From positions 1,143,863 through 1,198,938 of the forward strand of contig NZ_DS022295.1 in assembly GCF_000153765.1 (NCBI RefSeq): a DNA stretch of 55,076 nucleotides. Direction: 5' to 3'. The position numbers and the translations under genes are program-made. The DNA comes from Mariprofundus ferrooxydans PV-1 (GTDB lineage: Bacteria; Pseudomonadota; Zetaproteobacteria; Mariprofundales; Mariprofundaceae). The notes under the pieces are model-generated. The model was given only the letters and a program-made list of their open reading frames with translations. It was not told the origin of the DNA and made no database searches. Within the stretch, counting starts at the first letter, position 1; each line of letters begins with the position of its first letter. Below are positions 24,000 to 51,498 of this stretch, piece after piece.

Positions 24000-24002
24000 A
24001 TA

Positions 24003-24052
24003 TGGTGCTCCCTGAGCGATTCGAACGCCCGGCCTTCTGATTCGTAGTCAGG
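24003..24052 (-). pseudogene. tRNA-Arg(ACG) 3' half: left attachment site of the element
   Basis: Read on the minus strand: anticodon arm with loop CTACGAA (anticodon ACG), variable loop, T arm GGGCG-TTCGAAT-CGCTC, acceptor strand AGGGAGC, discriminator A and encoded CCA. The D arm and the 5' acceptor strand GCTCCCT are missing upstream. This is exactly the segment tyrosine integrases duplicate when inserting into a tRNA 3' end. An intact copy should stand at the far end of the element, beyond 55,076. Confidence 0.85.
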
Positions 24053-24215
24053 TGGTCACTGAACAGTATGAAACACCATGACAATAATGAAACATGATTA
24101 TTTGACTATTTAATAACAATTTACATAATGATGGCTATTCATGGTGTTGCACGATACGGCACCTTGTTACGCTATAAAGGGAACCCCAAGGGGAACCCAT
24201 ATATTTCGAGGCAAC

Positions 24216-25450: not shown

Positions 25451-26404
25451 TCATTGTAACGCCGCAGCAGCAAAAGACGGAATGGCAGTTTCATTCCGCC
25501 TTTTGTTGTCTGCAAAGTAACACTGAAAAGCGGAAAAATGCGAACCGCTCCTAAATTCCGGCACCACTCCCTCATGATACCTCCCCATACTGCACATCAA
25601 TTTCTCCCTGAAACAGGCAAGCCTCTCCTTCAGTTCATAAACATCCTCATCTCGTTCCTCATCAGCATATCCCAGAGCCTTCCGAGTAAACTGGATACGC
25701 ACATTCCGCTTCATTGCCGACGTAGTAACTGAAAACCCTGACGTGGTAGTTCGTGCAATCTCAAACCCTTCTTCATGAATCAACGGCTCTAATTCATTCA
25801 GCAACTCATGTGCTGTAATTTCACCATCAGCACCATCGAACACATATCTCCCTTCATCATTCAGCAGCCACAGAAGATTCTTAATATCCTCGGCAACATG
25901 CTTAGCAGATAATCGAAACAATGTCCCTGACTTACAAGGCGCATCCAGCCCATACGTGGCATTCACAACATCCTTCCACGCGTTGAACCTCTGCGTATCG
26001 CCCCTCGCAGTCACAAACGGCTGATACACTTTCCCACTACCCAAGTCGTAACGTAATGTCACAACATGATAATGGTCCCCATGACTTACAGCCATATAGG
26101 GCATCCTCCCCTTATCACATAACCCTGCTGCAAGCTCATCGATATACGAATCCAGAATCTGAAGGCGCTGGGCTTCTGTTGTGCGTTCCATATCAGAGTC
26201 CGAGAATGATAAAACTGAATGCGTGTATGGAGTCTTGCTGGGGATATCGAGAGACATGAGAGAGAGTAGCTCGGGCATTGTGCCAGTGACTTGTTTTACG
26301 ACTGGGCGGGGTTTGCCGTCAGCGTCCTTCTCTTGGAAAACGTAGGCGAGAACAGCATCTATGCTTGTTCCCGACTTTTTTGTTGGTATAAATTTAACCA
26401 ACAT
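25451..26404 (-). CDS. Relaxase / mobilization nuclease
   Basis: 317 residues from the ATG at 26,404, which overlaps the MobC-like stop by one base (TAATG). It opens MLVKFIPTKKSGTS, has AVLAYVFQ, and carries the metal-binding histidines in MAVSHGDHYHVVTLRYDL (HxDHxH-like) followed by FNAWKDVVNATYGLD. These features fit MobA/MOBP-like relaxases of integrative mobilizable elements. It would nick an oriT near the 26,773-27,138 gap. No type IV secretion genes occur in the window, so transfer would rely on a helper unless they lie further right. Confidence 0.75.
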   Translation of the reverse strand: MLVKFIPTKKSGTSIDAVLAYVFQEKDADGKPRPVVKQVTGTMPELLSLMSLDIPSKTPYTHSVLSFSDSDMERTTEAQRLQILDSYIDELAAGLCDKGRMPYMAVSHGDHYHVVTLRYDLGSGKVYQPFVTARGDTQRFNAWKDVVNATYGLDAPCKSGTLFRLSAKHVAEDIKNLLWLLNDEGRYVFDGADGEITAHELLNELEPLIHEEGFEIARTTTSGFSVTTSAMKRNVRIQFTRKALGYADEERDEDVYELKERLACFREKLMCSMGRYHEGVVPEFRSGSHFSAFQCYFADNKRRNETAIPSFAAAALQ

Positions 26405-26772
26405 TAGCTGCTCATGTACTTCGATTTCATTTCCTGAATTGTCGCATGGAATACCTGCATCGTAAGGTCGTAATGTGCACACATCTTCTTGATGTCTTCA
26501 TGTACGACTAACTCATCATTGGCTGAATCAAGTGAAGCGAAGAAGTAACTCAGTTCACGTAGTCCAATGCCCACATCAATCATAGCCTGATTCATTTCGT
26601 GTCCAAAATTAACTCGGTGCATTACTTGTACAGCGCCATCTTTTGCAAGGCTTTTTGCCTTGATTAGTTCTTTGGGGCTAATATCCAATGCCCGCGCCTC
26701 TTCGGCTATTTGCTCTACCTCCCTTTGATTGAAATATATGCTCTCGCTCTTTCCTGCTTTTTTCTGTTCCAT
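26404..26772 (-). CDS. MobC-like mobilization accessory protein
   Basis: 122 residues from the ATG at 26,772 (GGAG eight bases upstream). The N-terminal part KSESIYFNQREVEQIAEEARALDISPKELIKAKSL resembles the ribbon-helix-helix head of MobC proteins, followed by a helical tail. It is directly upstream of and translationally coupled to the relaxase. It probably binds oriT and assists nicking. Assignment rests on context plus the N-terminal pattern. Confidence 0.6.
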   Translation of the reverse strand: MEQKKAGKSESIYFNQREVEQIAEEARALDISPKELIKAKSLAKDGAVQVMHRVNFGHEMNQAMIDVGIGLRELSYFFASLDSANDELVVHEDIKKMCAHYDLTMQVFHATIQEMKSKYMSS

Positions 26773-35719: not shown

Positions 35720-36423
35720 AAAAATAACACCTTAGAATTCTCTTTCAACCAGCCCTTAGCCTCTCCATAATCCGGAACCACCTTCCCAACTTCTCTCCAA
35801 AACTCCGGCGAATGATTATGGTGAATCAAATGACACAGCTCATGCACAACCACATAATCCACAATCCGATTCGGAGCCATAATGATTCGCCAGTTATACT
35901 GGATATGCCCATCACTGGAACAACTCCCCCAGCGTGACTTAAAGCTCTTAATCCCGACCGAGGCAAAATGCACTCCCATCTGCTTAGCAAAGCGATTGCT
36001 CTTCTCTTTCAGCTTCTTCTCGGCATGTTCACGATACCACCCTTCAAGAAGCTTCTTAGTCCTTATTGGATTCAGCGGCTCAGGGGTTACTACCATCAAG
36101 TAGCCCTGTACAAGCTTCACAGAAACAGGCGAACCTTTAATAACCTTCAGACGGTAATTCTTGCCAAGGTATGAGAATGATTCTCCGCTGACGTATTCCT
36201 TCGGCTTAACAGCCATGACTTGGCTATGTAAAAGAAGCTTTTCTTTTATCCAGCGGTTCTTCTTGGCTATGACCTCTTCGATGCGGGATGTTGACAGTCC
36301 AGCAGGGGCAACCACCGAGACCTTTCCTGCCTCCACTTTTATGGTTGCAGTCTTACGGCGGTTAGCTCTAATCACCTCAGCGAGAAAGCCATTACCCTGA
36401 ATGAATTCAGCAACTGCACTCAT
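35716..36423 (-). CDS. YgjP-like (DUF45/M48-type) metallopeptidase
   Basis: 235 residues. The zinc site is VVVHELCHLIHHNHSPEFW (HExxH with a distal Glu/His region), preceded by RWGSCSSDGHIQYNWRIIMAP, the signature of YgjP-like proteins. It overlaps hsdR and the serine protease genes by 4 bases. YgjP homologues are frequent immediate neighbours of hsdR in type I restriction loci, but their target is unknown. Confidence 0.87.
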   Translation of the reverse strand: MSAVAEFIQGNGFLAEVIRANRRKTATIKVEAGKVSVVAPAGLSTSRIEEVIAKKNRWIKEKLLLHSQVMAVKPKEYVSGESFSYLGKNYRLKVIKGSPVSVKLVQGYLMVVTPEPLNPIRTKKLLEGWYREHAEKKLKEKSNRFAKQMGVHFASVGIKSFKSRWGSCSSDGHIQYNWRIIMAPNRIVDYVVVHELCHLIHHNHSPEFWREVGKVVPDYGEAKGWLKENSKVLFF

Positions 36424-39380
36424 TTTCCGAACTTCACCTTAGCCAGCTCCATAAACCTATCCATCACAGCTTTCCGAAGCTCAGCATCATCAAATGAAGT
36501 CTCAATAACCCGTCGTTTGATTTTCTTTTTCACAGAACTTATTTCATTCTGCTTATTAAAGAAATCCACAATGGCAGTCGCCTCATCAAGCATTACCACT
36601 AAATCTTTCGTTACCTGAATCACCTCATCATGAGTAGCTTCATCAATGGACTCATTGCCGGTTACACGAGCCACTTCTGATACCAGTATATTATGGAAGG
36701 CATATTCAGTCTGAGATAACCCAATATCCTCAGCCTCTTTCTTGTGATTAATCTCAATCGAATCTCTGAACTCAAGAAGCAACTGAACCAACTCATCCCA
36801 ATGCTCTTTATGTTGCTCAACAATTGCCTTCAACCGTTCACTGAGTTTCTTATAATATTCAGCATCCTCTTCAAGGTTCACATTGATATGGTGTTTGATG
36901 GCATTCTCAATCTCTGATGCCTTGGCTCGAGATGATTTATGTTCTTGAAGCTTCTCTTTGAAATTTGCTGCCAACAAATCAATCGGAGGAATCTTAACAT
37001 CAACGCCAACAGCTCGAAGATGCTCATCGATGAGTTTCCTGACCTTCTCTCCGCACCCCGAAATATCGAGTTGCTCATCACGATATAGGTTCCGTGCTCC
37101 CTGATTGACCTTACCAAGGAACACCAAGTCCTTCAGGAACGGTTTTGCTGCTGCATCCGGCATGATGATATCCATTTCCTTAGCAAACTTCTTAAAATCG
37201 ATTTCAAACTGCTGCCGCCGTGTTTCATCTTCTAAATGCAAAATGCATTCATCGATATCGGCTTTATCCACACCTTTGAAGTGTCCCATCACACGGGTAT
37301 GCATCTGCTTCAGTTTTGGTATCTCGTCCTTGAGGTCTTTCAACGCCCCTTCAATATCTTCAGAGGAAAACATTTCAAGTGCTTCGGTCAAATAATCACT
37401 CAATCCATAATAATCCACGATGAAACCACGAGACTTGCCAGCATAGGTTCGATTCACTCTGGCGATAGCCTGCAACAAGTTATGCTCAGTCAGCTTCCTG
37501 TCCAGATACATCACCTGACAGATAGGTGCATCAAATCCTGTCAGAAGCATATCCTTCACTACCAATATTGAGATGGCGCTCTCAGCCAGTGGTTTCTTAA
37601 ATGCCTCAATCACCGTTTTTTGTTTATTCGAATCTGTATGTTTACTGAAGAACTCAGGGTCATTGTGATTGCCTGAGATAATTACTTCAGTCTGAGGTCC
37701 ATCGAGTTCATCAAGCGTCTGCTTGTACAACACTGCTGCACGGCGGGAACTGGTAACAATCATCGCCTTAAAGCCATTGGGTTGAATATGTTCTCTGTAA
37801 TGTTCAAGGATATCGATACAAATCCATCTGATACGCTGAGGAGCCTCCAGCACTGCCGATAGCGTGCCGAACTTCTTCTTGATTGCAAATTTCTCATCAT
37901 CGGTTTTATCGTGAAAATAAGCATCAAAGAGCTTATCCAAAGAGTCGCCTGTTACCTTGGTTCTTGCTTCCCGTCCTTCGTAAAGAATCTGAACCGTTGC
38001 ACCGTCAGCAACAGCCTGCTCAATGGTATAGGTGTCGATATAGCTACCGAATTCGTTGTTGGTCTTCTGGGAGGCAATCAACGGTGTGCCAGTAAATGCA
38101 ATCTTCGCTGCCTTGGGAAGAGCAGCATTCAGAGCTACACCCAATGCGCCGTATTGCGTCCTATGAGCCTCATCTGCCAATACCACAATCTTCTCTGACG
38201 CATTCAGCTCAGGAAAGTTGAAATCATCCTCTTCCTGTAATTTTTGCATCATTGCGGTTATCAGGTCAGAGCTGTCTTTCTGTAACAACTCCTTGAGATG
38301 TGCCACGCTCTTAGCTCGATACACGGTTTCACCCTGAACACGTTCAAAGGTTGCAGTAAGCTGACTATCAAGCTGCGTCCGGTCGGTCATAAACACCAGC
38401 TTATAATCCTTCAGTTCAGCATCTCTGCGCATCTTTACCGCAAGGAAAACCATCGTCAGAGACTTGCCAGAACCTTGGGTATGCCAGACCACACCTCCAC
38501 GTTCTTTCTTCGTCTTCCCTGTCTTAATGCGTTCAATCGTTTTATGCACAGCACGGAACTGCTGGTACCGAGCAATCTTCTTGATGACTTTGCCATCGGT
38601 TGGCTCAAATACGGTGAAGTTCTGGATGATATCGAGGAAGTTTTTCTTATTAAAAAGTCCACTAATCAGGACTTCCTGAGACGATAGGGAATCATCTACC
38701 TTCAGTGGATAGGCATCTTTCCATTCCAGATAATGTTCCATGCGGGAACTGATGGTTCCAACACGGGCTTTATCTCTATGAGTGGAGACCATCATCTGAT
38801 TATACCAGAATAGCTTCTCAGCACCTTCATCCTCATGTGGCATACGGCGATTGGCATAACGCAGAAGCTGATTGATGCCTGCTTCCATTGGATTGGTGAT
38901 GTATGGTGACTTGCACTCAATTACTGTCAGCGGAAGCCCATTCACGAATAGAATGATGTCTGGAATGATGTTCTGGTTGATGCCTTCAACCTTGAACTGA
39001 TTCGAGCAAATAAATTCATTGTTTTCGATATTATCAAAATCGATGATTTTAACCGTCTGCCCACGGCGACCTTTCCCCAAATCCTGCTCGACTGACTGGT
39101 ACTGAACCATGGCTTCCCAGATGGACTGATTAGCTTCCATCAGCGTGGCTGCCTGAGGCAAAATGATGTCCCGCATCACCTTGCGAAGGTTATCGTCGCT
39201 TATCCAAGGGTTGATGCGCTTCAGTGAGGTTTCGAGCTGGTTCTTGAGAACCACTTCACGCATGGAATCACGTTCATCGGATTCGTCGGTAAGCATCCGG
39301 CCATCAATGTAGCGCCAGCCGAGGGACTGGAGTTGTTCAATTGCAGGGAGTTCTACTTTTTCGTATTCGAGCGAATTCAT
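36420..39380 (-). CDS. hsdR: Type I restriction enzyme R subunit
   Basis: 986 residues. The nuclease domain (residues 100-160) has PDIILFVNGLPLTVIECKSP, the PD-(D/E)xK core. The SF2 motor follows: Walker A HTQGSGKSLTMVF near 305, DEAHRTQYG near 410, AFTGTPL, and motif VI QAIARVNRTY near 650. A helical C-terminal domain contacts HsdM. It translocates and cuts DNA lacking the HsdM mark. Its start directly abuts the DUF262 stop (TAA-ATG) and its stop overlaps the YgjP gene, so it is translated as part of the long operon. Confidence 0.95.
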   Translation of the reverse strand: MNSLEYEKVELPAIEQLQSLGWRYIDGRMLTDESDERDSMREVVLKNQLETSLKRINPWISDDNLRKVMRDIILPQAATLMEANQSIWEAMVQYQSVEQDLGKGRRGQTVKIIDFDNIENNEFICSNQFKVEGINQNIIPDIILFVNGLPLTVIECKSPYITNPMEAGINQLLRYANRRMPHEDEGAEKLFWYNQMMVSTHRDKARVGTISSRMEHYLEWKDAYPLKVDDSLSSQEVLISGLFNKKNFLDIIQNFTVFEPTDGKVIKKIARYQQFRAVHKTIERIKTGKTKKERGGVVWHTQGSGKSLTMVFLAVKMRRDAELKDYKLVFMTDRTQLDSQLTATFERVQGETVYRAKSVAHLKELLQKDSSDLITAMMQKLQEEDDFNFPELNASEKIVVLADEAHRTQYGALGVALNAALPKAAKIAFTGTPLIASQKTNNEFGSYIDTYTIEQAVADGATVQILYEGREARTKVTGDSLDKLFDAYFHDKTDDEKFAIKKKFGTLSAVLEAPQRIRWICIDILEHYREHIQPNGFKAMIVTSSRRAAVLYKQTLDELDGPQTEVIISGNHNDPEFFSKHTDSNKQKTVIEAFKKPLAESAISILVVKDMLLTGFDAPICQVMYLDRKLTEHNLLQAIARVNRTYAGKSRGFIVDYYGLSDYLTEALEMFSSEDIEGALKDLKDEIPKLKQMHTRVMGHFKGVDKADIDECILHLEDETRRQQFEIDFKKFAKEMDIIMPDAAAKPFLKDLVFLGKVNQGARNLYRDEQLDISGCGEKVRKLIDEHLRAVGVDVKIPPIDLLAANFKEKLQEHKSSRAKASEIENAIKHHINVNLEEDAEYYKKLSERLKAIVEQHKEHWDELVQLLLEFRDSIEINHKKEAEDIGLSQTEYAFHNILVSEVARVTGNESIDEATHDEVIQVTKDLVVMLDEATAIVDFFNKQNEISSVKKKIKRRVIETSFDDAELRKAVMDRFMELAKVKFGK

Positions 39381-41465
39381 TTATTCTGACTCAACTTGGA
39401 TATCGAATGCTTGCTGAATCAATTCCATTACATAGTCCATGTCAGTGCTTGTCTCCAGAGCGACCTCAACATCTCCATTTCCCCAACGGCCAAGATTAGA
39501 GATGTCCCGACAAATTCCTTCAGGGTCAATTATACTTTCGAAGTCGATATTTAATGACAGCCTTAGTTTTGATTTCTGGGGAACAACATCCACAAAGTTT
39601 GTTTGGGATTTGAACGCAATATATAACTTCTTAAATTCTACTCTTACGCTTGGGTCAATATTTAGCACACGCTTCTCAAGGTGCTCATATAGAGCAAGCA
39701 TATCTCCCTTCAAATGCTCATATTGTTCCAAGGTATAGGTTTGAGTTTCTCTACCCGTCTTAACTTCTTTAAACCTTGCAAGCGATTGCTCATCAATGTC
39801 TGGATAAGTCCAAATACTTGCAGCCATTGCCGCTAAACTTGAAGCTCTTCGTGTTATGGCATCCTTATTCCATACATCCTCTTTTCTTACTGAGTCATTG
39901 AGGGTCAAAGGGCTGTGGTTAAATCCACCTTTAATCGTTCGCTTCTCACTAAATGGGCGGTCACTCAATTCTGAGTTGTATCCAGTAAGTGTTAAATTTC
40001 CGATGGTGTGAAGATATTTTTCATGGACTGAACGCCAATCTTCTCCCAATTCTTGTTGCCACTGTGGCGATACGTTTTCATTTTGAGGCATTATGTGTTC
40101 AATCGTGTAGTTATCCGCCTGAACAAGCTCTTTACGTTTATAGTTCTCTAATGATTCAAGCAAATAGTTCCTTAACCTGAAGTTATAAACATCCTTGAGC
40201 ATAAACTCTTCTTCAAACTCAGAGTCTGTCGGGAATCTTCTATAGCTGTCCATTAATACGAATGCAGCTTTGATGGATTCAAGATAGTTTTCGACTTTCA
40301 CCTTCTTATACAGAGAAGCAAATGTCTTGTTCAGGCTATTCGTTGGGATTCCACATATTGCCCTTCTAAACACGTAGTTTTTCACTATTTGCAATATCTC
40401 AATAAGTTCAGATTTCTCTATATGCCCATTTTTATAGTCGTGGTAACAAGCAATTAGGAATGGGTAGGCAACATCCATTTTTAATTTTGATATTTCTTTA
40501 AATAGAGCCAGTAACTCTTGGTCCTTTTCAGTATGTAAGACCATCTGAGTGTAATATTGAGAGAATGTATATAAGTCACGCACTGCATCAGAAATTGATG
40601 CTGGACCATTTTCGCCCTTTAAGAAATCCTTGTACGCTTCGTATATATGTTCGATTTTTGGTATCTCGTTCTTCTTCATGGTTAGGTAATCCCTGAAAAA
40701 CCATTTCAACCAGTCAATTTTATCTCCAAATAGTTTCTCCATTGGATACCAATATTTTTCATACAGCTCTGTTTGCACAGATACTGGTTGACCCATCAAG
40801 ATATAGTTTCTTATCAAATCTGCTTGAGACAAATCTAACCCAGTGGAATTCAAGCTCTCAAAAATTAACTGCGGGTCATCCTTGTCTCTTTCAAGTATTA
40901 CATCGACAATGATAAGTTTCTTTATGCCATGATATACTTGTTCTATATTCTCTTTTGTTAGCTTCTTTTTAAAGAACTCGTAATTCTCAACTACCCTTGA
41001 AGAATCATCAGAGGAGACTTCCATTTCATTCACAATAGCTGAATAAGTTTCTTTATCCCTTCTGGTTAACAGGAGCTTATATTTGCTGTCATCTTTCTTA
41101 TGCCTATTTACGAGGTAAGACTCTTGAATTTCTTCCCATGACTCCTCTTCAATCAGGTCATCATCGTGTTTTTTCAAGAAGTGAATGAGAGCCAACAGAA
41201 GTAGTGAAACTGTTGTCAAACGTTGTTGACCATCAATAACCAAATATTCTGGAACACTGGTAGTCGGTGCAACACTTGGTTGAAAATAAACAACAGAACC
41301 GATGAAGTGGGACTTTTGTTCAGCATTCCCACCAACCATCAATATATCATCAAATAGTTGCTGGCATTGTTTCAACTTCCATGAATAAGTTCTTTGGTAA
41401 ATTGGTATATTGAATTGTTTTTTTCCATCCAACAGCGATAAGAAAGCCGCTTGATTAGCAATCAT
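39381..41465 (-). CDS. DUF262/DUF1524 protein (RloF/GmrSD-like)
   Basis: 694 residues. The N-terminal DUF262 ParB-like domain has FNIPIYQRTYSWKLKQCQQLFDD and VIDGQQRLTTVSLLLLALI; the C-terminal DUF1524 HNH-like domain has YTIEHIMPQNENVSPQW and HTIGNLTLTGYNSELSDRPF. GmrSD and BrxU enzymes of this architecture cleave modified phage DNA using nucleotide hydrolysis. In type I loci similar genes are called rloF. Placed between the zinc-ribbon gene and hsdR, it may add a type IV activity against phages with modified bases. It has an extra tail of about 130 residues after the HNH. Confidence 0.88.
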   Translation of the reverse strand: MIANQAAFLSLLDGKKQFNIPIYQRTYSWKLKQCQQLFDDILMVGGNAEQKSHFIGSVVYFQPSVAPTTSVPEYLVIDGQQRLTTVSLLLLALIHFLKKHDDDLIEEESWEEIQESYLVNRHKKDDSKYKLLLTRRDKETYSAIVNEMEVSSDDSSRVVENYEFFKKKLTKENIEQVYHGIKKLIIVDVILERDKDDPQLIFESLNSTGLDLSQADLIRNYILMGQPVSVQTELYEKYWYPMEKLFGDKIDWLKWFFRDYLTMKKNEIPKIEHIYEAYKDFLKGENGPASISDAVRDLYTFSQYYTQMVLHTEKDQELLALFKEISKLKMDVAYPFLIACYHDYKNGHIEKSELIEILQIVKNYVFRRAICGIPTNSLNKTFASLYKKVKVENYLESIKAAFVLMDSYRRFPTDSEFEEEFMLKDVYNFRLRNYLLESLENYKRKELVQADNYTIEHIMPQNENVSPQWQQELGEDWRSVHEKYLHTIGNLTLTGYNSELSDRPFSEKRTIKGGFNHSPLTLNDSVRKEDVWNKDAITRRASSLAAMAASIWTYPDIDEQSLARFKEVKTGRETQTYTLEQYEHLKGDMLALYEHLEKRVLNIDPSVRVEFKKLYIAFKSQTNFVDVVPQKSKLRLSLNIDFESIIDPEGICRDISNLGRWGNGDVEVALETSTDMDYVMELIQQAFDIQVESE

Positions 41466-41480
41466 CTAACTCCCTCCAGT

Positions 41481-41879
41481 TCAATCCCATAACATTTCTG
41501 CTCCTCTCTCCAGCTCCCTCTTACCACATGACTTGCAGGCATATCTTTCAAGCACCAGCACATTCTCATCGACAACTTCAAGAGGAGTCCTACATTTACC
41601 GCACCGAAAAGCCACCTCAAAAGCCTTTCCGTCATCATATTCTAGATGCACATAAAAGCGTTCATGCAGCGTATTACAATTCGGACATGCGTAGAGCCGG
41701 TGCTCAAACTCACCGTCCATAACATGGTGGTTTTCCAAGATATCTACAACCTTATTTCTGGCCGCTCCCTTCAGACATGAAATCACATTCATAAGAGAGT
41801 TATACTGCATACCAACACCAAGCATAAAGCTCTCACCATAATCACAGTTCTTGCACTCAACACAAAGCCCATGTCCCAT
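41481..41879 (-). CDS. Four-CxxC zinc-ribbon protein
   Basis: 132 residues from the ATG two bases after the abi stop (a TTG 18 bases earlier is possible). Four CxxC knuckles appear: CVECKNCDYG, YACPNCNT, FRCGKCRT and YACKSCGK, suggesting two rubredoxin-like zinc sites. There is no enzyme motif. Position between abi and the DUF262 gene makes it a likely accessory or adaptor of one of these. The family is not recognised. Confidence 0.65.
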   Translation of the reverse strand: MGHGLCVECKNCDYGESFMLGVGMQYNSLMNVISCLKGAARNKVVDILENHHVMDGEFEHRLYACPNCNTLHERFYVHLEYDDGKAFEVAFRCGKCRTPLEVVDENVLVLERYACKSCGKRELERGAEMLWD

Positions 41880-41881
41880 AG

Positions 41882-42808
41882 CTATTTCATGCCCCAAAAC
41901 TCATCATCGCTCCAACCCTCCGGAAACCCCATATATTGAATCGGAATGTCCGGATGGTTACCCAGCAACTCAATTAATCGCTTGCTCCAGCTTGAGTGTG
42001 GATTAATGCGCTTCATCAACGCTTCCACCATGCACAAGTATGCATATACCTTCTGCCTGTCTCCCACGTCATGACTAACCCATGGAATATTCGGGTTCCG
42101 AGGTATATCGAATCGGTAAATCAGTTTTCGGTTCCACAACCTTCCGTGATGGGCGCAAATATTTCTAAGCAGGCAAATAGGTTTGAACCATGAGAGCAAC
42201 AACCTGACCGGAATACCCAAGCTATTGGCAATGCGGTATCGGGCATCTTTAACTGTTTTGTTGTTGGCATCCATGTTAAAAAAGATGCGTTCGATTTCAC
42301 CAACAGTCATTGCTTCAACCAGTTTCCAGCTTGGCGGTAATGAATCATAGGTTTCCCTATGGTGCTTCATAAATACTTCGTGAGACTTGTTACAGAGCTT
42401 TTCGATGCGTGACATCTCTTTGGCATGGTTAAATCGATAGGAGTCTTTAAACAAGGAAGGGTCGGCATACCAGTTTGGTCCGGCACCAATGGAGAACTCA
42501 TATGCTATTGTGCCACGTAGCGCCACTTCAATCCGCTCAATGGCATCCATAACCAGCAGGCGGAGTTCTCTGTCGAAAGTGTACAGCTTGAGTACATCAT
42601 CGAAAGTTGTGCCATCTTGAAACTGATGCTCTGTGGATTCTGAAACTTGTAGGGTTCGAGCGTAAATGCTTAGTCGATAATAACTGATGTAACGAAGGTA
42701 ATGAGCTGCCCGTTCTCTGTCAGGAACGGATAAACCACGGTTAATTAGCAGGTCAATCTGCTCATCAATGGTAAGAGCTGGCTTATCGTAGGCTTGTTTT
42801 TCAGGCAT
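41882..42808 (-). CDS. Abi_2 family abortive infection protein (AbiD/AbiF-like)
   Basis: 308 residues. Typical Abi_2 blocks are LTIDEQIDLLINRGLSV, HYLRYISYYRLSIYA, FDRELRLLVMDAIERIEVALR, and the HEPN ribonuclease motif RNICAHHGRLWNR (R-x4-H). The start codon is the ATG immediately after the U run of a terminator, so a longer frame reading into the hairpin is rejected. In characterised AbiF-like systems the protein is a HEPN RNase toxin held by a small RNA encoded just upstream, and the same arrangement is seen here. It is nested between the TIR-membrane pair and the zinc-ribbon gene. Confidence 0.87.
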   Translation of the reverse strand: MPEKQAYDKPALTIDEQIDLLINRGLSVPDRERAAHYLRYISYYRLSIYARTLQVSESTEHQFQDGTTFDDVLKLYTFDRELRLLVMDAIERIEVALRGTIAYEFSIGAGPNWYADPSLFKDSYRFNHAKEMSRIEKLCNKSHEVFMKHHRETYDSLPPSWKLVEAMTVGEIERIFFNMDANNKTVKDARYRIANSLGIPVRLLLSWFKPICLLRNICAHHGRLWNRKLIYRFDIPRNPNIPWVSHDVGDRQKVYAYLCMVEALMKRINPHSSWSKRLIELLGNHPDIPIQYMGFPEGWSDDEFWGMK

Positions 42809-42860
42809 AAAAAAACCCGCCAAAAATGCGCTTCAGGGAGAGGCGAGGCGGGTGTTGATG
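42809..42860 (-). ncRNA. Candidate small RNA with terminator preceding abi
   Basis: About 52 bases from a predicted start near 42,860 to the end of a seven-U run at 42,809. The stem ACCCGCC (42,847-42,853) / GGCGGGT (42,815-42,821) encloses a 25-base loop that may itself fold. The U run touches the abi ATG. A dedicated promoter in front and a terminator behind leave no room for a protein, so the unit looks like an RNA antitoxin or attenuator. The size is unusually small. Confidence 0.6.
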
Positions 42861-42866
42861 CCCCGC

Positions 42867-42895
42867 ATTATAGTTGACTGGTGTTAACATTTCAA
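42867..42895 (-). promoter_or_regulatory. Sigma70 promoter of the abi-linked RNA
   Basis: TTGAAA and TATAAT separated by exactly 17 bases on the minus strand, in the 102-base gap between the membrane-protein gene and abi. This is one of the best promoter matches in the window. Confidence 0.8.
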
Positions 42896-42910
42896 TATCT
42901 ATATTGTCCA

Positions 42911-44113
42911 TCATTTACTTTCTTTTTGCTTTTCAAGTGCCTTAAGGCGCTCTTCAAGCTGTTTGATAATCTTTTCCAGAGCTGCATTCGATTTTGTTAA
43001 GTTTGAAATTTCATCTCGTTGGTGATTAATTAACGCAACTGTTTCAGATTGAGTCATGGCAGAATAGTCGATACTTTTTCCTAATAACTCTATTTCTTTA
43101 GCAGCTTGAGACTCTCTTCGACTCAATCCTGAATTAATGCCAACCAATTTTTCTGAAATTTCTTCAGAATACTTTTTCAAAAGTTCTTGCTGAATATTTC
43201 CAGCCTGAATATCACTCCAGATTGTATATATTGAAAGTGAAATCACTACTACAGTAAAAAAGATACTCCACTTTGAAAACTTTGATGCACTATCTCCAGA
43301 TGATTTTATCTCATTTGCAATCTGCACCTGATTGCTATTTGCCTCTGCCATAAATTCAGCCGACTGCGTAGAAGTATCAATTAGCAAATCAAGTCGTTCG
43401 GCTAAGTCTTTGAAGGGTTTAGCTCTTTTCTCTTCTTCCAGTTGATATAACTCTTGCTGTCGCAGTATTAATTCATTGCTTAAATCTTTAGGTTGGACTG
43501 CAATTTTTGGCAACTGCGAGGCTCTTCTAATTCGCTCAACCGATGCCTTTAAAGAGTCTCCCATGTGAAGTGTTTCAGATAAGGTTTCAGTTAATTTTGA
43601 AGAAAAGTTTGAAGCTCCAGAAAACTTTTTCCATATCGCCTCGATTTGTTTATTACGTTTCTCATGGTCGATTACTGATAAGCGGTAAAGGTAAGACACG
43701 TTGCTTTCATTATCTTCTTTAGGATGCTCAACATTGCCGAACACACGCATACCTGTTTCTGCATCAGTTTCTTCTTTTTTGTATAGACGTTCATTATGCT
43801 TGAGATAAACAGAAGCTATTTCTTCCAATTCTTCAACAGATAACATATCAATATCTGATTTTGTAAGCGTTGGTTTATTTGGTTTTGATTTATCATTATC
43901 AAGAGAGTTTTCTCTATGGCATAAATACCTGAACAAAACCCTCACATAAGCTTCCGACTCAATATTTTCAATCCCATCAGCAAGGTCCTCGCTAATGCCT
44001 GTTAAGTCACTCACTGACACATCTGGAAATAAAAATACTTTTCCTATTGCAGTATCGATACTACCAATAGGCTTTTGCCTTATAAGCTTAATTAACGACT
44101 TCTTTTTACTCAT
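42911..44113 (-). CDS. Membrane-anchored coiled-coil protein paired with the TIR gene
   Basis: 400 residues without a known domain. Residues 1-275 are hydrophilic, with LSVEELEEIASVYLKHNERLY and a helical run ending at the membrane. One transmembrane helix spans about 281-300 (WSIFFTVVVISLSIYTIW). Residues 305-400 are a long coiled coil ending in heptads (LEKIIKQLEERLKALEKQ). It starts 5 bases after the TIR stop. It resembles a membrane effector or scaffold fed by the TIR enzyme, but that is inference. Codon use and AT content match its neighbours. Confidence 0.6.
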   Translation of the reverse strand: MSKKKSLIKLIRQKPIGSIDTAIGKVFLFPDVSVSDLTGISEDLADGIENIESEAYVRVLFRYLCHRENSLDNDKSKPNKPTLTKSDIDMLSVEELEEIASVYLKHNERLYKKEETDAETGMRVFGNVEHPKEDNESNVSYLYRLSVIDHEKRNKQIEAIWKKFSGASNFSSKLTETLSETLHMGDSLKASVERIRRASQLPKIAVQPKDLSNELILRQQELYQLEEEKRAKPFKDLAERLDLLIDTSTQSAEFMAEANSNQVQIANEIKSSGDSASKFSKWSIFFTVVVISLSIYTIWSDIQAGNIQQELLKKYSEEISEKLVGINSGLSRRESQAAKEIELLGKSIDYSAMTQSETVALINHQRDEISNLTKSNAALEKIIKQLEERLKALEKQKESK

Positions 44114-44118
44114 GCAAA

Positions 44119-45030
44119 CTATGTCCCCATGGGAGTAGCAATTATCTTCATAAGCCTTTGCTGCTCGTCGGGTGTTAACTTCTTAGAGATAGTGTGCATG
44201 TACTCTCTAATATCTTTAAGGTAATTACTTATATTAATCACTTGGTCTTTACCATTATCTTCACCAAGCCTACGACAAGTTACAACAACATCATACACAG
44301 CTCCACGCGTGATATCACCTATCGCCCCCTCAAACTTTTTAGGTAAAGTACTATCGAGAACCAAATGGAAATTTTCCTTATCTCCAAAATCAAAAAGAGC
44401 TTCAGCTATTATATTCCGACCTACCCAATCAAGTCCTGCATTCTGAAATTGTTTTTGCCTGGCTGTTAACACTTCATTACAAATGACATTAATTTCTATT
44501 AGAAAAGTCATTTTCAAATTCGTAGCTACGTTTGCATTGATAATTGTAAACCTAAGAAAAAAAAGACCGTCAACATCTCCCCAGTCAACAGCCCAATCCA
44601 CATACCCTTCGTCACCAGAAAATCTGCTTTGGTTTGGATTTGAGACCTTTGCTACTGCTTCCAAAATTGAGTGCAGACCTGCATCAAAATCGACCCTCAA
44701 ATCTGCATACATTTTATCACGAAGAAATAATGGGATTTCACAATCTTCTAAAAGCACAGGTAGAACAACTACTCGTTTCTCTTCAAGCTCTCTAATTAGA
44801 CCTACACTTAGCTCTTTTTTACACCACTCAGACTCTACTGATGCTTTTGACAGAACAATTAGAAGCGCATCGGATTCTGTTATGGCTTCTTGGACTCTCT
44901 GAATTAATGAGTCACCAACACTCAGCTCCCATCTATCCACCCATACCTGAGCATTTCTTTTAACCATATTTCCTGCAAGTAAATCAACTCTATCTTTATC
45001 TGCATGCGAATAGCTAATAAATATGGTCAT
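44119..45030 (-). CDS. TIR domain protein
   Basis: 303 residues. Residues 1-130 are a TIR domain: MTIFISYSHADKDRVD, VWVDRWELSVGD, the catalytic Glu73 in SEWCKKELSVG, and VVVLPVLLEDCEIPLFL. Residues 140-303 are an unassigned, partly beta-rich domain (YVDWAVDWGDVDGLFFLRF). TIR proteins in bacterial defence cleave NAD or make cyclic ADP-ribose signals when infection is sensed. The gene begins 3 bases after hsdS, so its output is tied to the specificity subunit. Whether the C-terminal domain is a sensor is unknown. Confidence 0.87.
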   Translation of the reverse strand: MTIFISYSHADKDRVDLLAGNMVKRNAQVWVDRWELSVGDSLIQRVQEAITESDALLIVLSKASVESEWCKKELSVGLIRELEEKRVVVLPVLLEDCEIPLFLRDKMYADLRVDFDAGLHSILEAVAKVSNPNQSRFSGDEGYVDWAVDWGDVDGLFFLRFTIINANVATNLKMTFLIEINVICNEVLTARQKQFQNAGLDWVGRNIIAEALFDFGDKENFHLVLDSTLPKKFEGAIGDITRGAVYDVVVTCRRLGEDNGKDQVINISNYLKDIREYMHTISKKLTPDEQQRLMKIIATPMGT

Positions 45031-45033
45031 CTG

Positions 45034-46251
45034 TTAAACCATAACCCTTACTTTACCTGTTAACAGGTCTTGCATCAGGGATTTTTTTAAAGACTTGATA
45101 TGCATTAATTTCAATTGTTTTGCACCTACTGCATTATCAATTGAGTCCAATATGGACGAAATATTTTTTTGCTCATCCAATGGTGGAAATGCAATTTCCA
45201 CCCCCTCAATCTGTCCACCACTGATATTAGGTTGTGCTCCTCCAATCGCATCTATCAAGAGCTTCTCAGTAAAAGATGAAGAGCTTACGACGTGATGGAT
45301 ATAACTCATCTCAACCATTCCTTTTGATACAAACTTACCAACACGTTGATTGAGGTATGCTTTTTCCCTGAAGTTATATCTCCCAACTTTGCCTGTTGTC
45401 GCTCCAGACATTGCTATTAGACTATCTGAATGACTGACCTCAAAAGCTTCCGAAATATTTATTTCATCATGAAATGCAGCATTAGACAAATCTACATCGC
45501 CTGACTTAGAAATATTTGATATCCGAACTACTGGTACACCTTTATCTGTAAAGTTTTCACTCTTAAATGCATACCCACCTTGAAGCTTTACATATTTGCC
45601 AAGCCTAACCACCTCCCACCCCTTCGGAATCATCCCAACAGGGCTGTCCTTGAACTCAGTATGCCCGATTCCTTTGGTAAGCAGCTCCTGCATCATGGCT
45701 TTCTTCAGGTCTTGGAGCTTGGATATTTGGGCTTCCTGTTTCTCTATTACTTCGTCTACGGAGGTTAGGATGGAAGCGATTTTCTTTTGTTCGGGGAGAG
45801 GGGGGAGTAGAAGTTTTATTGCTTTTACGTTAGTACTTGAAATTTCTTGGAACGTACTACCAGCAGACATCTTCTCTAATTCAGGCCTAACAAACAATAT
45901 TAATTGATAAAGATACTCGTTATAGACTTTTTCCCTGCACTTCAAAGATTGAAACCCTTGGTTTGTTGTCATAGGTACAGAATTTATTGCAGGGTATCCG
46001 ATACTTGCCCTGCTGGTCATTAAAACTGTCCCGACAGGGAGTAATTTAGCGGAACTCCTTGCCAACCCTTCATCCGAGATATATTCCTTTGTTTTTTCGA
46101 TATATCGACCAGAAAGGGATGTTACTTCTGTTGGAGAGACCCAAGGAATGCAACCATTCCAAAAGTCCGACCTTGACCGTTCGGGGGTTCCTCCACCAAC
46201 GACATCGCAAATATCTTCAATTCGATATTTTTTCCACCCTTCAGGAATCAT
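45034..46251 (-). CDS. hsdS: Type I restriction enzyme specificity subunit
   Basis: 405 residues with two target-recognition domains, each followed by a helical spacer: LPPLPEQKKIASILTSVDEVIEKQEAQISKLQDLKKAMMQELLT (central) and FPPLDEQKNISSILDSIDNAVGAKQLKLMHIKSLKKSLMQDLLTGKVRV (end). Residues 195-215 restart with GMIPKGWEVVRLGKYV, mirroring MIPEGWKKYRIEDI at the start. It determines the DNA target for methylation and restriction. It overlaps the small upstream gene by 11 bases. Confidence 0.95.
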   Translation of the reverse strand: MIPEGWKKYRIEDICDVVGGGTPERSRSDFWNGCIPWVSPTEVTSLSGRYIEKTKEYISDEGLARSSAKLLPVGTVLMTSRASIGYPAINSVPMTTNQGFQSLKCREKVYNEYLYQLILFVRPELEKMSAGSTFQEISSTNVKAIKLLLPPLPEQKKIASILTSVDEVIEKQEAQISKLQDLKKAMMQELLTKGIGHTEFKDSPVGMIPKGWEVVRLGKYVKLQGGYAFKSENFTDKGVPVVRISNISKSGDVDLSNAAFHDEINISEAFEVSHSDSLIAMSGATTGKVGRYNFREKAYLNQRVGKFVSKGMVEMSYIHHVVSSSSFTEKLLIDAIGGAQPNISGGQIEGVEIAFPPLDEQKNISSILDSIDNAVGAKQLKLMHIKSLKKSLMQDLLTGKVRVMV

Positions 46252-46651
46252 TACTGAACTCCTCTAACAGGGAAGCTGCTAAGGCCTCCACTTCGGACAA
46301 CTTCATCTCAGCCCGTTCTAATGTTTTAGAGTCAATTGTCTTAGGGTCCGCCCAATATTTTCCTTTAAGCATACATTTCCTTGCCAAGTCCTTTAATCCC
46401 AAGTCTTCGAGCTTAAATGATAGCCTTGTCCACTCCATAGATAAGCCTTCTTCACGTTCATAGGACTTACCTTCCTGCTCTGCCTGTCGTAAATACAATG
46501 TTGTTTTTCGGATAGCAGTAATTACAGCCCGAATAGCCTCCTTGGACTCTTCCTTTCTGCTTTCCTTCGCTCTCCTCAGGTTGGTAAGCCACTTTTTTGC
46601 ATGGCTGATAATTGATAACCATTCACTGGCGCTTAGCTCTAATACAGGCAT
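46241..46651 (-). CDS. Small helical protein between hsdM and hsdS
   Basis: 136 residues, strongly helical and rich in Lys, Arg and Glu (LRRAKESRKEESKEAIRAVITAIRKTTLYLRQAEQEG, then LGLKDLARKCMLKGKYW). It overlaps hsdM by an ATGA junction and hsdS by 11 bases, so it is translated in strict proportion to both. No family was recognised. It may chaperone the M2S complex or regulate restriction. Similar helical inserts occur in some type I loci, but I cannot name one. Confidence 0.7.
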   Translation of the reverse strand: MPVLELSASEWLSIISHAKKWLTNLRRAKESRKEESKEAIRAVITAIRKTTLYLRQAEQEGKSYEREEGLSMEWTRLSFKLEDLGLKDLARKCMLKGKYWADPKTIDSKTLERAEMKLSEVEALAASLLEEFSNDS

Positions 46652-48369
46652 CAGTACCCAAGCTCCTGCAAATACCCCTTCATCACGCTTTCAGCCTCAT
46701 CCACCTCAGCATCCAGTTCCTTCAAACTCACCTTGTACTTATCCCACCAGCGCTCAATCTGAGCGATAACCTTCTGGTCATCCAGTCCAACAAACTCCCG
46801 AATAGATTCTTTGCTCTCAATCTCAGGCTTAAACTCGTAGTAGTCATCATCTCTTCGATTAAATACCACAGATACATCAAACCCATCCAGTATCTCTTCC
46901 TGAATATATTCATCCTCAACTTCACGAACGGGAATACCGCCATGCAGGATGGCTCTAACATCGTAGATTTCTGGTGGCGGTGACGTATCAGCATAGCGAC
47001 GGATATTCAGGTTAAAATCATTCTCCTCAATCTCTGACAGAGTAGCGATATGAGAATAACGCTTAATCTCTTCATAGTTCTCAAACGTCGCAGTAATTTT
47101 GGCAATATCCTCATCTCTGAGCTTGTTCTGGTTCTTGCCCTCTTCATACTCCAGCTCAGCATTGATGAATAACACCTTGCCCTTACGCTCATCTGCCTTT
47201 TGTTTGTTAATTATCAACAGACACGCTGGAATTCCTGTGCCATAGAACAAGCCTGAAGGCAGTCCAATCACAGCTTCCAGCAAATCATCTTGGAGGATGC
47301 CCTTGCGAATAGCCTTCTCACTGGAGCCACGGAATAACACGCCATGAGGCATGACCACACCCATCTTTCCCTCTGCATTCAGAGAGGCAATCATGTGTTG
47401 AACGAATGCAAGGTCTCCAGCGTCCTTAGGCGGTGTGCCATATGGAAAACGACCATAGGCATCATTATCGGCTTCATCCTTACCCCATTTCTTCAGAGAG
47501 AAAGGAGGATTGGCTATTACTCTGTCGAAATGCATCAGTTCGCCATGCTGAATATGTGCAGGGTCTCTAAGCGTATCTCCCTTGCGTATGTCCGCATTGA
47601 ATACGCCATGCAGGAACATATTCATCTTGCAGATTGCCCATGTGTTCAGGTTCATTTCCTGACCATATAGGGCAAGGTCACGGGGGTTCTCACCATGAGA
47701 TGCCAGATAGTTGCGTGTCTGAATCAGCATGCCACCTGAACCAACGGTCGGGTCATAGACTCTCATGCCAGCTTCCGGCTTCAGGAGTGACACCAAGAGA
47801 CGCACGACCTCGCTCGGTGTATAGAACTCTCCTCCTTTCTTACCCGCTGAATCGGCAAACATTTTGATAAGGTATTCGTATGCGGTTCCGAGCAGGTCCG
47901 GCTTTTCAAAGTCTTCATTTCGGAGGCGGTATTTGCTGTAGTGGGAAATCAGGTCACGTAGCTTTTTATCGGAAAGCTTGTTCTTAATATTGAAGTCGAT
48001 GGAGACCAGCACGCCTTCCAAGGTGGTGTTCGCTTCTTCAATCGCCTCAGTAGCTTTGTTTAATTCTGCACCAATATCGTGATGTAGGTCCTTCAGATAG
48101 CTCCAGCGTGCCCGCTCCGGCACAAAGAAGGTGTTGTCATACTCATCCTCGTCCTGAGCCAATTCCTCAGCCTGAGCTTGTGTTTTGCCAACGCTAAGAT
48201 AGTGAGCAACAACCTTTTCCTGTTCTTCTTCAAATGCATCAGAAAGGCGCTTCAGGAACAGCATACCAAAGATATAATCCTTGAACTCACTGGCATCCAT
48301 ATTGCCACGAAGAATATCTGCTGTTTCCCACAGGAATGATTCAAGCTGTTGAAGTGTAATCTTACTCAA
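46651..48369 (-). CDS. hsdM: Type I restriction enzyme methyltransferase subunit
   Basis: 572 residues from a TTG at 48,369, preceded by GGGAGG six bases upstream; a TTG five codons earlier overlaps that RBS. HsdM_N is [39 protein letters not shown] motif I is [19 protein letters not shown] near 220 and catalytic motif IV is [10 protein letters not shown] near 290, typical of gamma-class N6-adenine methyltransferases. First gene of the eleven-gene island. Confidence 0.95.
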
Positions 48370-48384
48370 TGGATGACCTCCCAA

Positions 48385-48619: not shown

Positions 48620-49330
48620 ATGAATAGTGAAGAGTTATTTGGTTTCAAATTTAATTGGTTAGAGCCAAAAATTTCTACCTCATATCCATATAATGAATCG
48701 CATCCTCTTTTCGCCGCAGCCCAACAAGTAGCAAGACTGTCAGTAAAACATCTCCCAAAAGGTTTTACCTATAAGGATGTGCTTCGCACGAATGAAGCAA
48801 CGGCCAATATAGTAAATGGCCTAACATCAAACAAAGATAATGAATATTGGAAAAGTAAGAGTAAGGAACTTCCTTTTGACATAGCTCTTGTATGTGAAGC
48901 AATAAAAAGAATCGAAAAATCTATTCTTCTTTTTGACCGAATGGCCATTAGTTTTGCATGGCAGGAAATGTCTCAGGCAAATCTAATAATTGGCAAGGTT
49001 ATTGGTTTTCATGATAAAGAGCTTCCTGATAAATTCAGTTTGGAATTCTATCAGGAGAACGGCTCAATAGGTGGCAAGATTTCAAAGGGTAATCGGTCTC
49101 CATTTAGAGACAAAGCATGCAAAGAAATCCAAGCCATTATAGAAAAAAGACACCTGTGGAATGATGGACATAGCGCATCGAGTCTTACTCGCCTTTTTTG
49201 GCCTGAATTACATGAAGTAAAAAAACAACAGAGTGGGTCTTGGCTTGGTATATCGTATGCAGATATTGTATATGCTCAAATTGGACGAAGAACCATCTAT
49301 GATTGCATCAGTGAGACAAATCCAAATTAG
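48620..49330 (+). CDS. Unknown protein upstream of the AcrVA2-like operon
   Basis: 236 residues, soluble; no recognised domain. Notable segments are SHPLFAAAQQVARLSVKHLPKGFTYK, the glycine run NGSIGGKISKGNRSP and WPELHEVKKQQ. The last 35 codons are copied almost exactly at 51,189-51,294 as part of the 288-bp duplication. It begins with a strong RBS. It could be a regulator of the downstream genes or independent cargo. Confidence 0.6.
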   Translation: MNSEELFGFKFNWLEPKISTSYPYNESHPLFAAAQQVARLSVKHLPKGFTYKDVLRTNEATANIVNGLTSNKDNEYWKSKSKELPFDIALVCEAIKRIEKSILLFDRMAISFAWQEMSQANLIIGKVIGFHDKELPDKFSLEFYQENGSIGGKISKGNRSPFRDKACKEIQAIIEKRHLWNDGHSASSLTRLFWPELHEVKKQQSGSWLGISYADIVYAQIGRRTIYDCISETNPN

Positions 49331-49510
49331 CAGCAGGACATTAAGCAAACGACCTCTATTTCATTGTTTGTAGCATAGGGGGTACGCTACAAAATCCTGA
49401 CTCAAGGCTCCTCCAGCCCATAATTGCTCCTATCAATCGCAGTTAATCTGCTTATAGGAGCAAAAGTTATGACCCCATTAATAATTGCAAATAATGGCGT
49501 AAATATCTCA
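49223..49510 (+). repeat. 288-bp duplicated segment, copy A
   Basis: It contains the last 35 codons of the 236-residue gene, the intergenic region and the first 14 codons of the next gene. Copy B (51,187-51,474) is the same length and differs at only about two dozen positions, with no gaps. The offset of 1,964 bases encloses the two genes between them. Confidence 0.92.
49426..49461 (+). promoter_or_regulatory. Hairpin/operator overlapping the ribosome binding site, copy A
   Basis: GCTCCTAT pairs with ATAGGAGC and, inside, GCAG pairs with CTGC. The right arm contains the AGGAG ribosome binding site 7 bases before the ATG at 49,469, so folding would hide it. In copy B the single change in the stem (GCAG to GTAG) still pairs as G-U in RNA. 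It may alternatively be a dyad operator. Confidence 0.65.
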
Positions 49511-49927
49511 TACACGAATTATTTTGACATTGAGCAAGGAAAGGCAGTATATGTCTATTTAAGTTGTAATGCAGGAGCTATCAGACTACTTCTTCCTGAT
49601 TTACAAATGAATTTGCTGAATAAAATTCAGTCAACAGAGCATGTAGTCATTTCGAGAGGGGCATACCCATCAATAGGTAAACATGACTTTATAGAGATAA
49701 TGTTTGAAGACTATACAGGTTCTCCTTATGCAATACATACTGAGGTTTCTCAATGTGATTTCTTGCCTGCAAATAGAGACTCTGGACGAGAATTTGAATT
49801 TAGTATTTGGACAGCCTCAGGAAAGCAAAGAACGCTTCCATGTTTTTTACGCTTAGTAAAAAAACTCCCTTGCTTAAAGCCATTTCCTATACATAAAAGG
49901 AAAAAACATTATACAGATAACATCTGA
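49469..49927 (+). CDS. Unknown beta-rich protein, first gene of the AcrVA2-like operon
   Basis: 152 residues from the ATG with AGGAG at 49,457-49,461. The sequence alternates hydrophobic strands (GKAVYVYLSCNAGAIRLLL, HDFIEIMFEDYTG, FEFSIWTASGKQ) and ends in a basic tail KPFPIHKRKKHY. No known motif. A gap of 60 bases precedes the AcrVA2-like gene on the same strand. Its start is duplicated as a leader peptide at 51,433. It may be another counter-defence gene or a regulator. Confidence 0.6.
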   Translation: MTPLIIANNGVNISYTNYFDIEQGKAVYVYLSCNAGAIRLLLPDLQMNLLNKIQSTEHVVISRGAYPSIGKHDFIEIMFEDYTGSPYAIHTEVSQCDFLPANRDSGREFEFSIWTASGKQRTLPCFLRLVKKLPCLKPFPIHKRKKHYTDNI

Positions 49928-49987: not shown

Positions 49988-51004
49988 ATGAAACAGACAC
50001 GTCAACAAAAACATTTACTTGAGATTTCTCAAAAATATCCTAATGCATGGAAACACATGGATATGTTCAGAAACAGCCAAGGTAAAGATGGTATCCCAAC
50101 GTGGCCCAATTGGTGTTTTGCCCCAATGGCTGCATCGGCTGCAATTGTTACGAAAGGCTCAATGTTATCTAGTTTATTTGCCGTACAAGATTATAGTATA
50201 TTGAGTGCTTTATCTGCATGGCGCTCAACGCAAGGTATTTATAGATTTGACCCAGACACATATCAATCTATAAAGAATTCCAAGATTGATGAAATACCGG
50301 TTGATATATTTTACCAGTTACCAGAATGGTGTGTATATATTGAAACACCTGATTCTCAATGGATGGGAAAGAAAATGTATGGCTTTTACGCTCATTTAGA
50401 ATGGGATGTAAATAGTAATGGTGCAAGACATGAACTAAGGTTACTTATCGATACCGATGATGAGCTTCTTTCTGTGCCGCTCCATCTTATAAAAGGAACA
50501 ATAAATAATTCATTGAATTCAGTTAAATCTGAAGCCATAAAACAAGGAGATGCTCATGGATTAGGAATGATAAATAAATTCATACCAACAAACTTCTATG
50601 ATTTCATGGCGATGAATGTTGAACCTTTGTTATCTCTAATTATGTACATTTGTTCCAGTGATGCAGATATTATTAACCCTAGAAACCCAACGATGAAACC
50701 GCAGAACCCTTCTCCTAAGAAGACACGCAGAAAAGGTAAAAAAACTTTCGCTGCAAAAAAAACCACCATTTGGGAAACAGGGTTCAACCTAGGAAAAGTA
50801 ATTAGAAATTACAATAAACAGTCCTCAAAAATAAAGGGTACGAAAAGACCACATGTGAGACGTGCACACTGGCACCATTACTGGCAAATTGAAAATTCAA
50901 AAACGGGTCGAAAGAAGCTAATAGCAAAATGGCTACCCCCAACTCTTGTTGCATTCAAGCAATCTGAAGAGTTAAAACCTACTATAAGAAAGGTAGCAAC
51001 ATGA
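49988..51004 (+). CDS. AcrVA2-like anti-CRISPR family protein
   Basis: 338 residues, close to the 322 of AcrVA2 from Moraxella bovoculi. Shared blocks in order are ILSALSAWRSTQGIYRFD near 71-88, DIFYQLPEWCVYIET near 106-120, LLIDTDDELLSVPLHL, IMYICSSDADI near 218, and KRPHVRRAHWHHYWQ at 286-300 before KWLPP. AcrVA2 binds the nascent N-terminus of Cas12a and triggers loss of its mRNA; homologues are widespread on plasmids of hosts lacking Cas12a. RBS GGAGG. A lysine-rich linker (residues 240-262) is an insertion. Activity against a specific Cas protein cannot be inferred. Confidence 0.82.
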   Translation: MKQTRQQKHLLEISQKYPNAWKHMDMFRNSQGKDGIPTWPNWCFAPMAASAAIVTKGSMLSSLFAVQDYSILSALSAWRSTQGIYRFDPDTYQSIKNSKIDEIPVDIFYQLPEWCVYIETPDSQWMGKKMYGFYAHLEWDVNSNGARHELRLLIDTDDELLSVPLHLIKGTINNSLNSVKSEAIKQGDAHGLGMINKFIPTNFYDFMAMNVEPLLSLIMYICSSDADIINPRNPTMKPQNPSPKKTRRKGKKTFAAKKTTIWETGFNLGKVIRNYNKQSSKIKGTKRPHVRRAHWHHYWQIENSKTGRKKLIAKWLPPTLVAFKQSEELKPTIRKVAT

Positions 51005-51188
51005 AATTTTAGAAACTTGAAATCGAAGTTTCGTTGAAAATAGGCCGGGAGAAAACCTCCCAGCCTCCATTTATCTACACCCCCTTATTAAAATACAAAA
51101 AATTTCAGCTTTGCTTCTAATACAGCTACTGCCGCACTTCAGACCAGTCACGTCGCGCCAGATTCAGTTCGACTAGCTTGACGGAAAA

Positions 51189-51294
51189 CAACAAGAGTGG
51201 CTCTTGGTTTGATATATCGTATGCAGATATTGTATATGCTCAAATTGGACAAAGAACCACCTATGATTGCATCAATGAGACAAGTCCAAATTAG
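51189..51294 (+). pseudogene. C-terminal relic of the 236-residue gene
   Basis: In-frame codons give SWFDISYADIVYAQIGQ, then TTYDCINETSPN and a stop, nearly identical to the end of the gene at 48,620-49,330. It has no start or upstream part and was carried along by the duplication. Confidence 0.9.
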
Positions 51295-51389
51295 CAGCAG
51301 GACATCAAGCAAACGACCTCTGTCTCATTGTTTGCAGCATAGGGGGTACGCTACAAAATCCTGACCCAAGGCTCCTCCAGCCCATAATT

Positions 51390-51425
51390 GCTCCTATCAA
51401 TCGTAGTTAATCTGCTTATAGGAGC
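51390..51425 (+). promoter_or_regulatory. Hairpin/operator, copy B
   Basis: GCTCCTAT / ATAGGAGC outer arms are intact; the inner pair is GTAG / CTGC, still pairable through G-U. It stands 8 bases before the leader-peptide ATG. Confidence 0.6.
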
Positions 51426-51432
51426 AAAAGTT

Positions 51433-51498
51433 ATGACCCCATTAATAATTGAAAATGATTGCGTAAATATCTCAAAAAAGGAGGAGTTTCAGTCATGA
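51433..51498 (+). CDS. 21-codon leader peptide from the duplicated gene start
   Basis: It begins MTPLIIENDCVNIS like the gene at 49,469, then leaves the duplicated segment and stops in a TGA that overlaps the ATG of the 260-residue gene (ATGA). It carries its own AAAAAGGAGGAG for the next gene. It is likely translated and couples the downstream gene to the duplicated control region. Confidence 0.6.
   Translation: MTPLIIENDCVNISKKEEFQS

Follow-up and report, generated by a model that had tools for sequence, protein, structure and literature searches.

A distant AcrVA2 homologue on a defence-bearing integrative element of Mariprofundus ferrooxydans belongs to one protein family with the plasmid fertility inhibitor FinQ

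We analysed a stretch of 55,076 nucleotides of the Mariprofundus ferrooxydans PV-1 genome (hereafter the window), which contains the left part of an integrative element of 48.5 kb (23991-72491 in window coordinates). The element lies in a tRNA-Arg gene and is bounded by 61-bp direct repeats that are 98% identical, with attL at 23991..24051 on the + strand and attR at 72431-72491, where it overlaps the 3' end of the tRNA-Arg(ACG) gene. The G+C content is ~40% inside the element versus ~54% outside. Directly beyond the last position of the window, the element's middle part (55077-65986) reads N. Next to attL we found a gene for a tyrosine integrase (24141..25391, + strand; Pfam Phage_integrase and Arm-DNA-bind_3), followed by a weak match to MobA/VirD2-like relaxases (25451..26482, − strand; Pfam E=3e-4, narrowly short of the curated threshold), and this weak match suggests that the element may be mobilizable.

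Further into the element, a block of defence genes on the − strand (36420..48384) encodes HsdR, the type IV enzyme GmrSD, AbiD, a TIR protein, HsdS and HsdM. An earlier note on this DNA had spoken of a defence-bearing element, and the type I restriction-modification, GmrSD, AbiD and TIR genes beside the gene studied here bear out that description. Two other proteins encoded in or next to the block, one of 400 aa (42911-44113; no PADLOC or Pfam model matches) and one of 236 aa (48620-49330; no PADLOC model, and only DUF1203 below its cut-off), are possible new defence or counter-defence genes. In addition, four short related repeats (CTGCTGCAC..TGCTGCACG), spaced 75 nt apart in pairs, occupy 53125-53493 upstream of the gene region beginning at 53494, and could be regulator binding sites or iterons.

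The gene on which we focused (49988..51004, + strand) was delimited by its open reading frame and identified by phmmer, Foldseek and tblastn; it starts with ATG a few bases downstream of GGAGG and encodes a protein of 338 aa. It is likely in the same operon as a small gene immediately upstream (49469..49927, + strand), which encodes 152 aa from the ATG at 49469 in a frame that opens at TTG 49424. Homologues of this 152-aa protein, ~39% identical, were found on 1139 plasmid records, mostly from E. coli, Salmonella and Shigella, and on an annotated IncI-type plasmid the homologue adjoins an integrase gene, just before it, and a ParA gene. In Pectobacterium plasmids, too, such a homologue lies directly 5' of a family gene. 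We rejected the small upstream gene as a required partner, since the two are adjacent only here and in the Pectobacterium plasmids and the small gene mostly occurs without the family gene. Clustering the neighbours of 100 loci recovered only common mobile genes (integrases at 18 loci, ParA at 8) and no conserved partner gene, indicating that the family has no obligate partner.

Two copies of a 300-nt direct repeat, 91% identical and spaced 1964 nt apart, bracket the family gene. The first copy (49221..49520, + strand) comprises the 3' end of the 236-aa gene, a hairpin and the 5' end of the small upstream gene, and the second (51185..51484, + strand) contains a broken start of that same upstream gene (MTPLIIENDCVNIS...stop). 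Based on these repeats and the broken start, we consider it probable that recombination added or duplicated the family gene, and it could remove it in the same way. At its 3' end an ATGA stop/start overlap (51001..51012, + strand) opens a frame that reaches TAG after only two codons (M-K-F-stop), which may be the relic of a small downstream gene. Small open reading frames overlapping or abutting the stop codon were found in 27/147 relatives as compared with 73/1195 control ORFs (P=2e-6, uncorrected for kinship), and several of the small overlapping genes of relatives looked HTH- or RHH-like by eye. The layout of an acr-aca pair was not seen here, as directly 3' of the family gene there is only the M-K-F-stop frame and no gene for a small DNA-binding regulator. 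A GC-rich, terminator-like hairpin with a weak T run, recognised by eye, follows at 51043..51066 on the + strand (GGCCGGGAG...CTCCCAGCC).

Comparison of the 338-aa protein with all PDB chains by phmmer gave one real match, AcrVA2 (PDB 7ci1/7ci2; E=1e-23, residues 42-321), and no other chain below 0.1. A profile built from 18 family sequences matched AcrVA2 at 3.1e-71, again with no other PDB chain below 0.1. The fold predicted by AlphaFold2 from 56 sequences (mean pLDDT 91.9, pTM 0.89) retrieved AcrVA2 chains from the PDB with Foldseek (3.6e-18, TM 0.62-0.71) and no further neighbour at E<=0.001. None of the Pfam, NCBIfam and PADLOC models covers the protein, which in PHROGs matches phrog_6160 (4e-59), a group listed there with function unknown. 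These results confirmed that the 338-aa protein is a distant AcrVA2 homologue, with a resemblance far beyond chance, and the AcrVA2-family assignment made in the earlier note holds: the profile search proposed there was significant, and the structural search agreed with it. Two marks of the broad AcrVA2-FinQ family were thus present, a significant match to sequences or profile along most of the protein and the AcrVA2 fold.

The C-terminal KRPHVRRAHWHHYWQ block, in which the earlier note had recognised an AcrVA2 motif, was indeed present in the alignments at residues 286-300 (50843..50887, + strand). Its residues H289, R291, R292, H294, W295 and H296 were near-invariant across the family, FinQ included, a conservation that is partly built in for the genome and viral loci, which were gathered by the pattern H.RR.HWH. 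In an alignment of 18 rows, 17 of them gathered by tblastn without that pattern, H289, R291 and R292 were invariant and H294, W295 and H296 were conserved in at least 90%. Near-invariant residues that AcrVA2 and FinQ likewise possess were W78, R79, Y85, P104, P112, G132, L150, G265 and W315 together with the six of the block, and the 338-aa protein has the H.RR.HWH block along with the conserved W78, Y85, P112, G132 and W315. That these residues are common to the family, AcrVA2 and FinQ suggests one shared activity exerted on varying targets.

The kinship with FinQ had not been foreseen in the earlier note. The 338-aa protein and FinQ matched each other by tblastn with E=7e-16 to 1e-16, and FinQ used alone as a query against the PDB returned AcrVA2 (7ci1) at 3.1e-18 over two matched stretches, one of which includes KRPHIRRGHWH, so that FinQ and AcrVA2 are themselves homologous. 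Judged by their sequences, FinQ, AcrVA2 and the 338-aa protein thus constitute one protein family. Among the open-access papers searched we found none that names AcrVA2 together with FinQ, a set to which the preprint on the AcrVA2 mechanism (bioRxiv 10.1101/2022.11.29.518452) does not belong, and none that treats FinQ together with anti-CRISPRs. A 2017 survey placed FinQ in a family apart, unrelated to other fertility inhibitors (PMC5696584). According to a 2022 review that cites Ham and Skurray 1989 (PMC8744291), FinQ terminates transcription of F tra genes in a Rho-independent manner, at multiple positions within the operon. For AcrVA2, a 2026 review (PMC13131331) reports recognition of the LSKT residues at the N-terminus of nascent Cas12a, upon which the cas12a mRNA is destroyed by a machinery given there as unknown.

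Relatives identified by tblastn were distributed over 553 plasmid records and 37 phage records, with a further 118 in species genomes and 104 in viral contigs, and their carriers include plasmids, integrative elements and phages. The plasmid matches came mostly from Escherichia, Salmonella and Shigella, where those among the matches listed were annotated finQ, and the closest plasmid relatives came from Methylotuvimicrobium, Geoalkalibacter, Methylobacter and Methylomonas. In the phylum of the host, 14/248 other genomes (~6%) of an even draw of 249 that included the window genome carried the family. A quick tree of 153 sequences has weak deep branches and a long FinQ branch, and only two of its groupings were used. 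The first is a clade of 6 (SH-aLRT support 100) whose stem is 2.7 changes per site long; it unites the Moraxella AcrVA2s with one copy each from a Moraxella genome and a Shewanella phage, and the 338-aa protein falls outside it. The second pairs the 338-aa protein with a zetaproteobacterial relative (L074) as its sister, with support 94. In Desulfovibrio the family recurs in many genomes and on several branches of the tree (nine loci). Azohydromonas australica (three loci) has several family copies in one genome, one of them with a second homologous copy ~2 kb away, as would be expected if the copies had different targets.

Considering that both studied members of the family, AcrVA2 and FinQ, lower the mRNA of one target or rival system, we lean towards reading the 338-aa protein as a target-specific silencer that acts on a gene of a rival element at the level of translation or mRNA. 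The protein would recognise the product of one particular gene, probably as a nascent peptide during translation in the manner of AcrVA2, and this recognition would lead to loss of the mRNA concerned. The target would most likely lie in a competing mobile element or in the defences directed against the protein's own element, rather than being Cas12a, with conjugation genes as the leading candidates by analogy with FinQ. The observations behind this reading are that the protein is homologous to AcrVA2 and FinQ, has the AcrVA2 fold and the C-terminal block, is encoded in a mobile-element setting and occurs in a host without a detectable cas12a; that its mechanism is shared, and what kind of target it has, we infer from them.

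A more specific form of the silencer reading makes the 338-aa protein a FinQ-like fertility inhibitor, acting on an F-type conjugation cluster of its own host or on related incoming elements. Such a cluster (TraG, TrbC, TraU, TraW, TraC, TraB, TraE) is located on the host chromosome ~340 kb from the family gene, at about 793000-814000 of contig C3 (two loci, G+C ~60%). Close to the C-terminus its TraC match is divided between two frames, possibly through a frameshift. Among 23 genomes of the genus, only the window genome contained the family gene and only the window genome had TraC above the cut-off, although a single co-residence is no proof. F-type TraC was over-represented in carriers collected by the pattern (6/29 versus 9/248, P=0.002), in which other conjugation ATPases were also somewhat enriched (12/29 versus 56/249), but the association was not repeated in the independent even draw, where 0/14 carriers had F-type TraC above the cut-off, the two carrier sets being scored to different depth and unmatched for genome size. 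Homology to FinQ speaks for this form of the reading, yet the identity is just 24-28%. The cluster is thus a suggestive candidate only, named because FinQ shuts off that class of genes, and we regard the fertility-inhibitor form as unlikely. A search for LSKT-like motifs near the N-termini of F Tra proteins was uninformative, with a single case among 33 (TrbB, LTKS), which implies that FinQ, if it reads nascent peptides, recognises something else.

The earlier note had offered two alternatives for the target, a resident type V system or a different protein. Its proposed search for cas12a returned none in the host genome with the NCBIfam Cas12a model, in an assembly in which 10.9 kb of the element (55077-65986) reads N, and none in the genomes of the host genus. 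A Cas1 model that matches 9/14 control genomes likewise found no cas1 in the host genome. The same Cas12a model detected its target in 9/22 Moraxella genomes, indicating that the search method works, and found it in 0/50 other family-carrying genomes and in 1/74 genomes of the host family, the latter belonging to another genus and encoding a full-length Cas12a with LSKT. Together with the position of the protein outside the AcrVA2 clade, these results count against a resident type V system, leaving a different target protein as the better half of that either/or. A working AcrVA2 orthologue might still protect the element upon entry into Cas12a-carrying hosts of the family, in line with AcrVA2 being the only structural neighbour and with the one LSKT-bearing Cas12a of that family. 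This seems improbable, however, given the rarity of cas12a in the host family and its lack among carriers, the position outside a well-supported clade whose stem is long (2.7 changes per site), and the evidence from FinQ that the family is not limited to Cas12a. Very probably, the 338-aa protein does not serve against Cas12a in its own host, and two marks of AcrVA2 in the strict sense, membership of the proven Moraxella clade and Cas12a in the host or its close relatives, were not seen. Because the host apparently lacks Cas12a and FinQ belongs to the same family, a gene of a rival element is a likelier target than Cas12a.

We see little probability in self-regulation, in which the protein would control not a rival but its own element or its host, for instance a neighbouring defence gene: the type I restriction-modification operon is 1.6 kb away and small regulator-like genes often lie 3' of family genes, but no neighbour was conserved across the 100 loci and restriction-modification genes did not recur beside relatives. 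It is just as doubtful that the gene is an idle, intact-looking passenger of an accessory hot spot, as its presence in one genome of the genus, the flanking repeats that could delete it and the downstream frame stopping after two codons might suggest, since the open frame is full-length, nearly all near-invariant residues are retained and the predicted fold is confident.

The reading of the 338-aa protein as a silencer of a rival's gene can be extended, more tentatively, to the family as a whole. AcrVA2 might represent one branch that has specialised within an old family of weapons, used by mobile elements to silence the mRNA of rivals co-translationally; the multi-site shut-off of tra by FinQ would then follow the same mechanism, and the 338-aa protein would be a silencer with a new target. 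As the reported action of FinQ is Rho-independent termination of transcription and not decay of mRNA, a mechanism shared with AcrVA2 is only a proposal. Taken by itself, the gene is a further distant relative of AcrVA2, found where no Cas12a was detected in the host. The part that deserves attention is the link between an anti-CRISPR protein and a plasmid fertility inhibitor that have been studied separately. If this link is mechanistic, the puzzle from the 1980s of how FinQ shuts off tra gains an answer that can be tested, and mobile elements would have a general weapon against each other in co-translational silencing of mRNA. Not every AcrVA2 homologue should be called an anti-CRISPR.

Compared with known systems, the 338-aa protein resembles AcrVA2 from mobile elements of Moraxella bovoculi (PDB 7ci1, 7ci2) in fold, in length and in the C-terminal KRPHxRRxHWHxYW block, and the genes of both sit on mobile elements. 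It differs in its sequence (~24% identity), in lying outside the anti-Cas12a clade and in having a host without detectable cas12a. FinQ, which inhibits the fertility of F and is encoded on IncI plasmids, is of the same family by sequence, has the same C-terminal block and likewise comes from an element in competition with others, at ~24-28% identity to the 338-aa protein. The finQ gene is found on conjugative plasmids between transfer genes, as on an example plasmid of the IncI type where it lies between a hok/gef-like gene and trbA-trbB-trbC, whereas the gene studied here belongs to an integrative element in which no conjugation genes are visible, with no transfer operon in the readable part of the tRNA-Arg element. 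The relatives on Methylotuvimicrobium, Geoalkalibacter, Methylobacter and Methylomonas plasmids, for which no annotated function was found, are 38-40% identical to the 338-aa protein over >90% of its length and differ from it in being plasmid-borne. The zetaproteobacterial sister L074 shares 49% identity over 234 columns and is distinguished by a phage-like neighbourhood, a missing part in the middle of the protein and a small HTH-like gene overlapping its stop codon.
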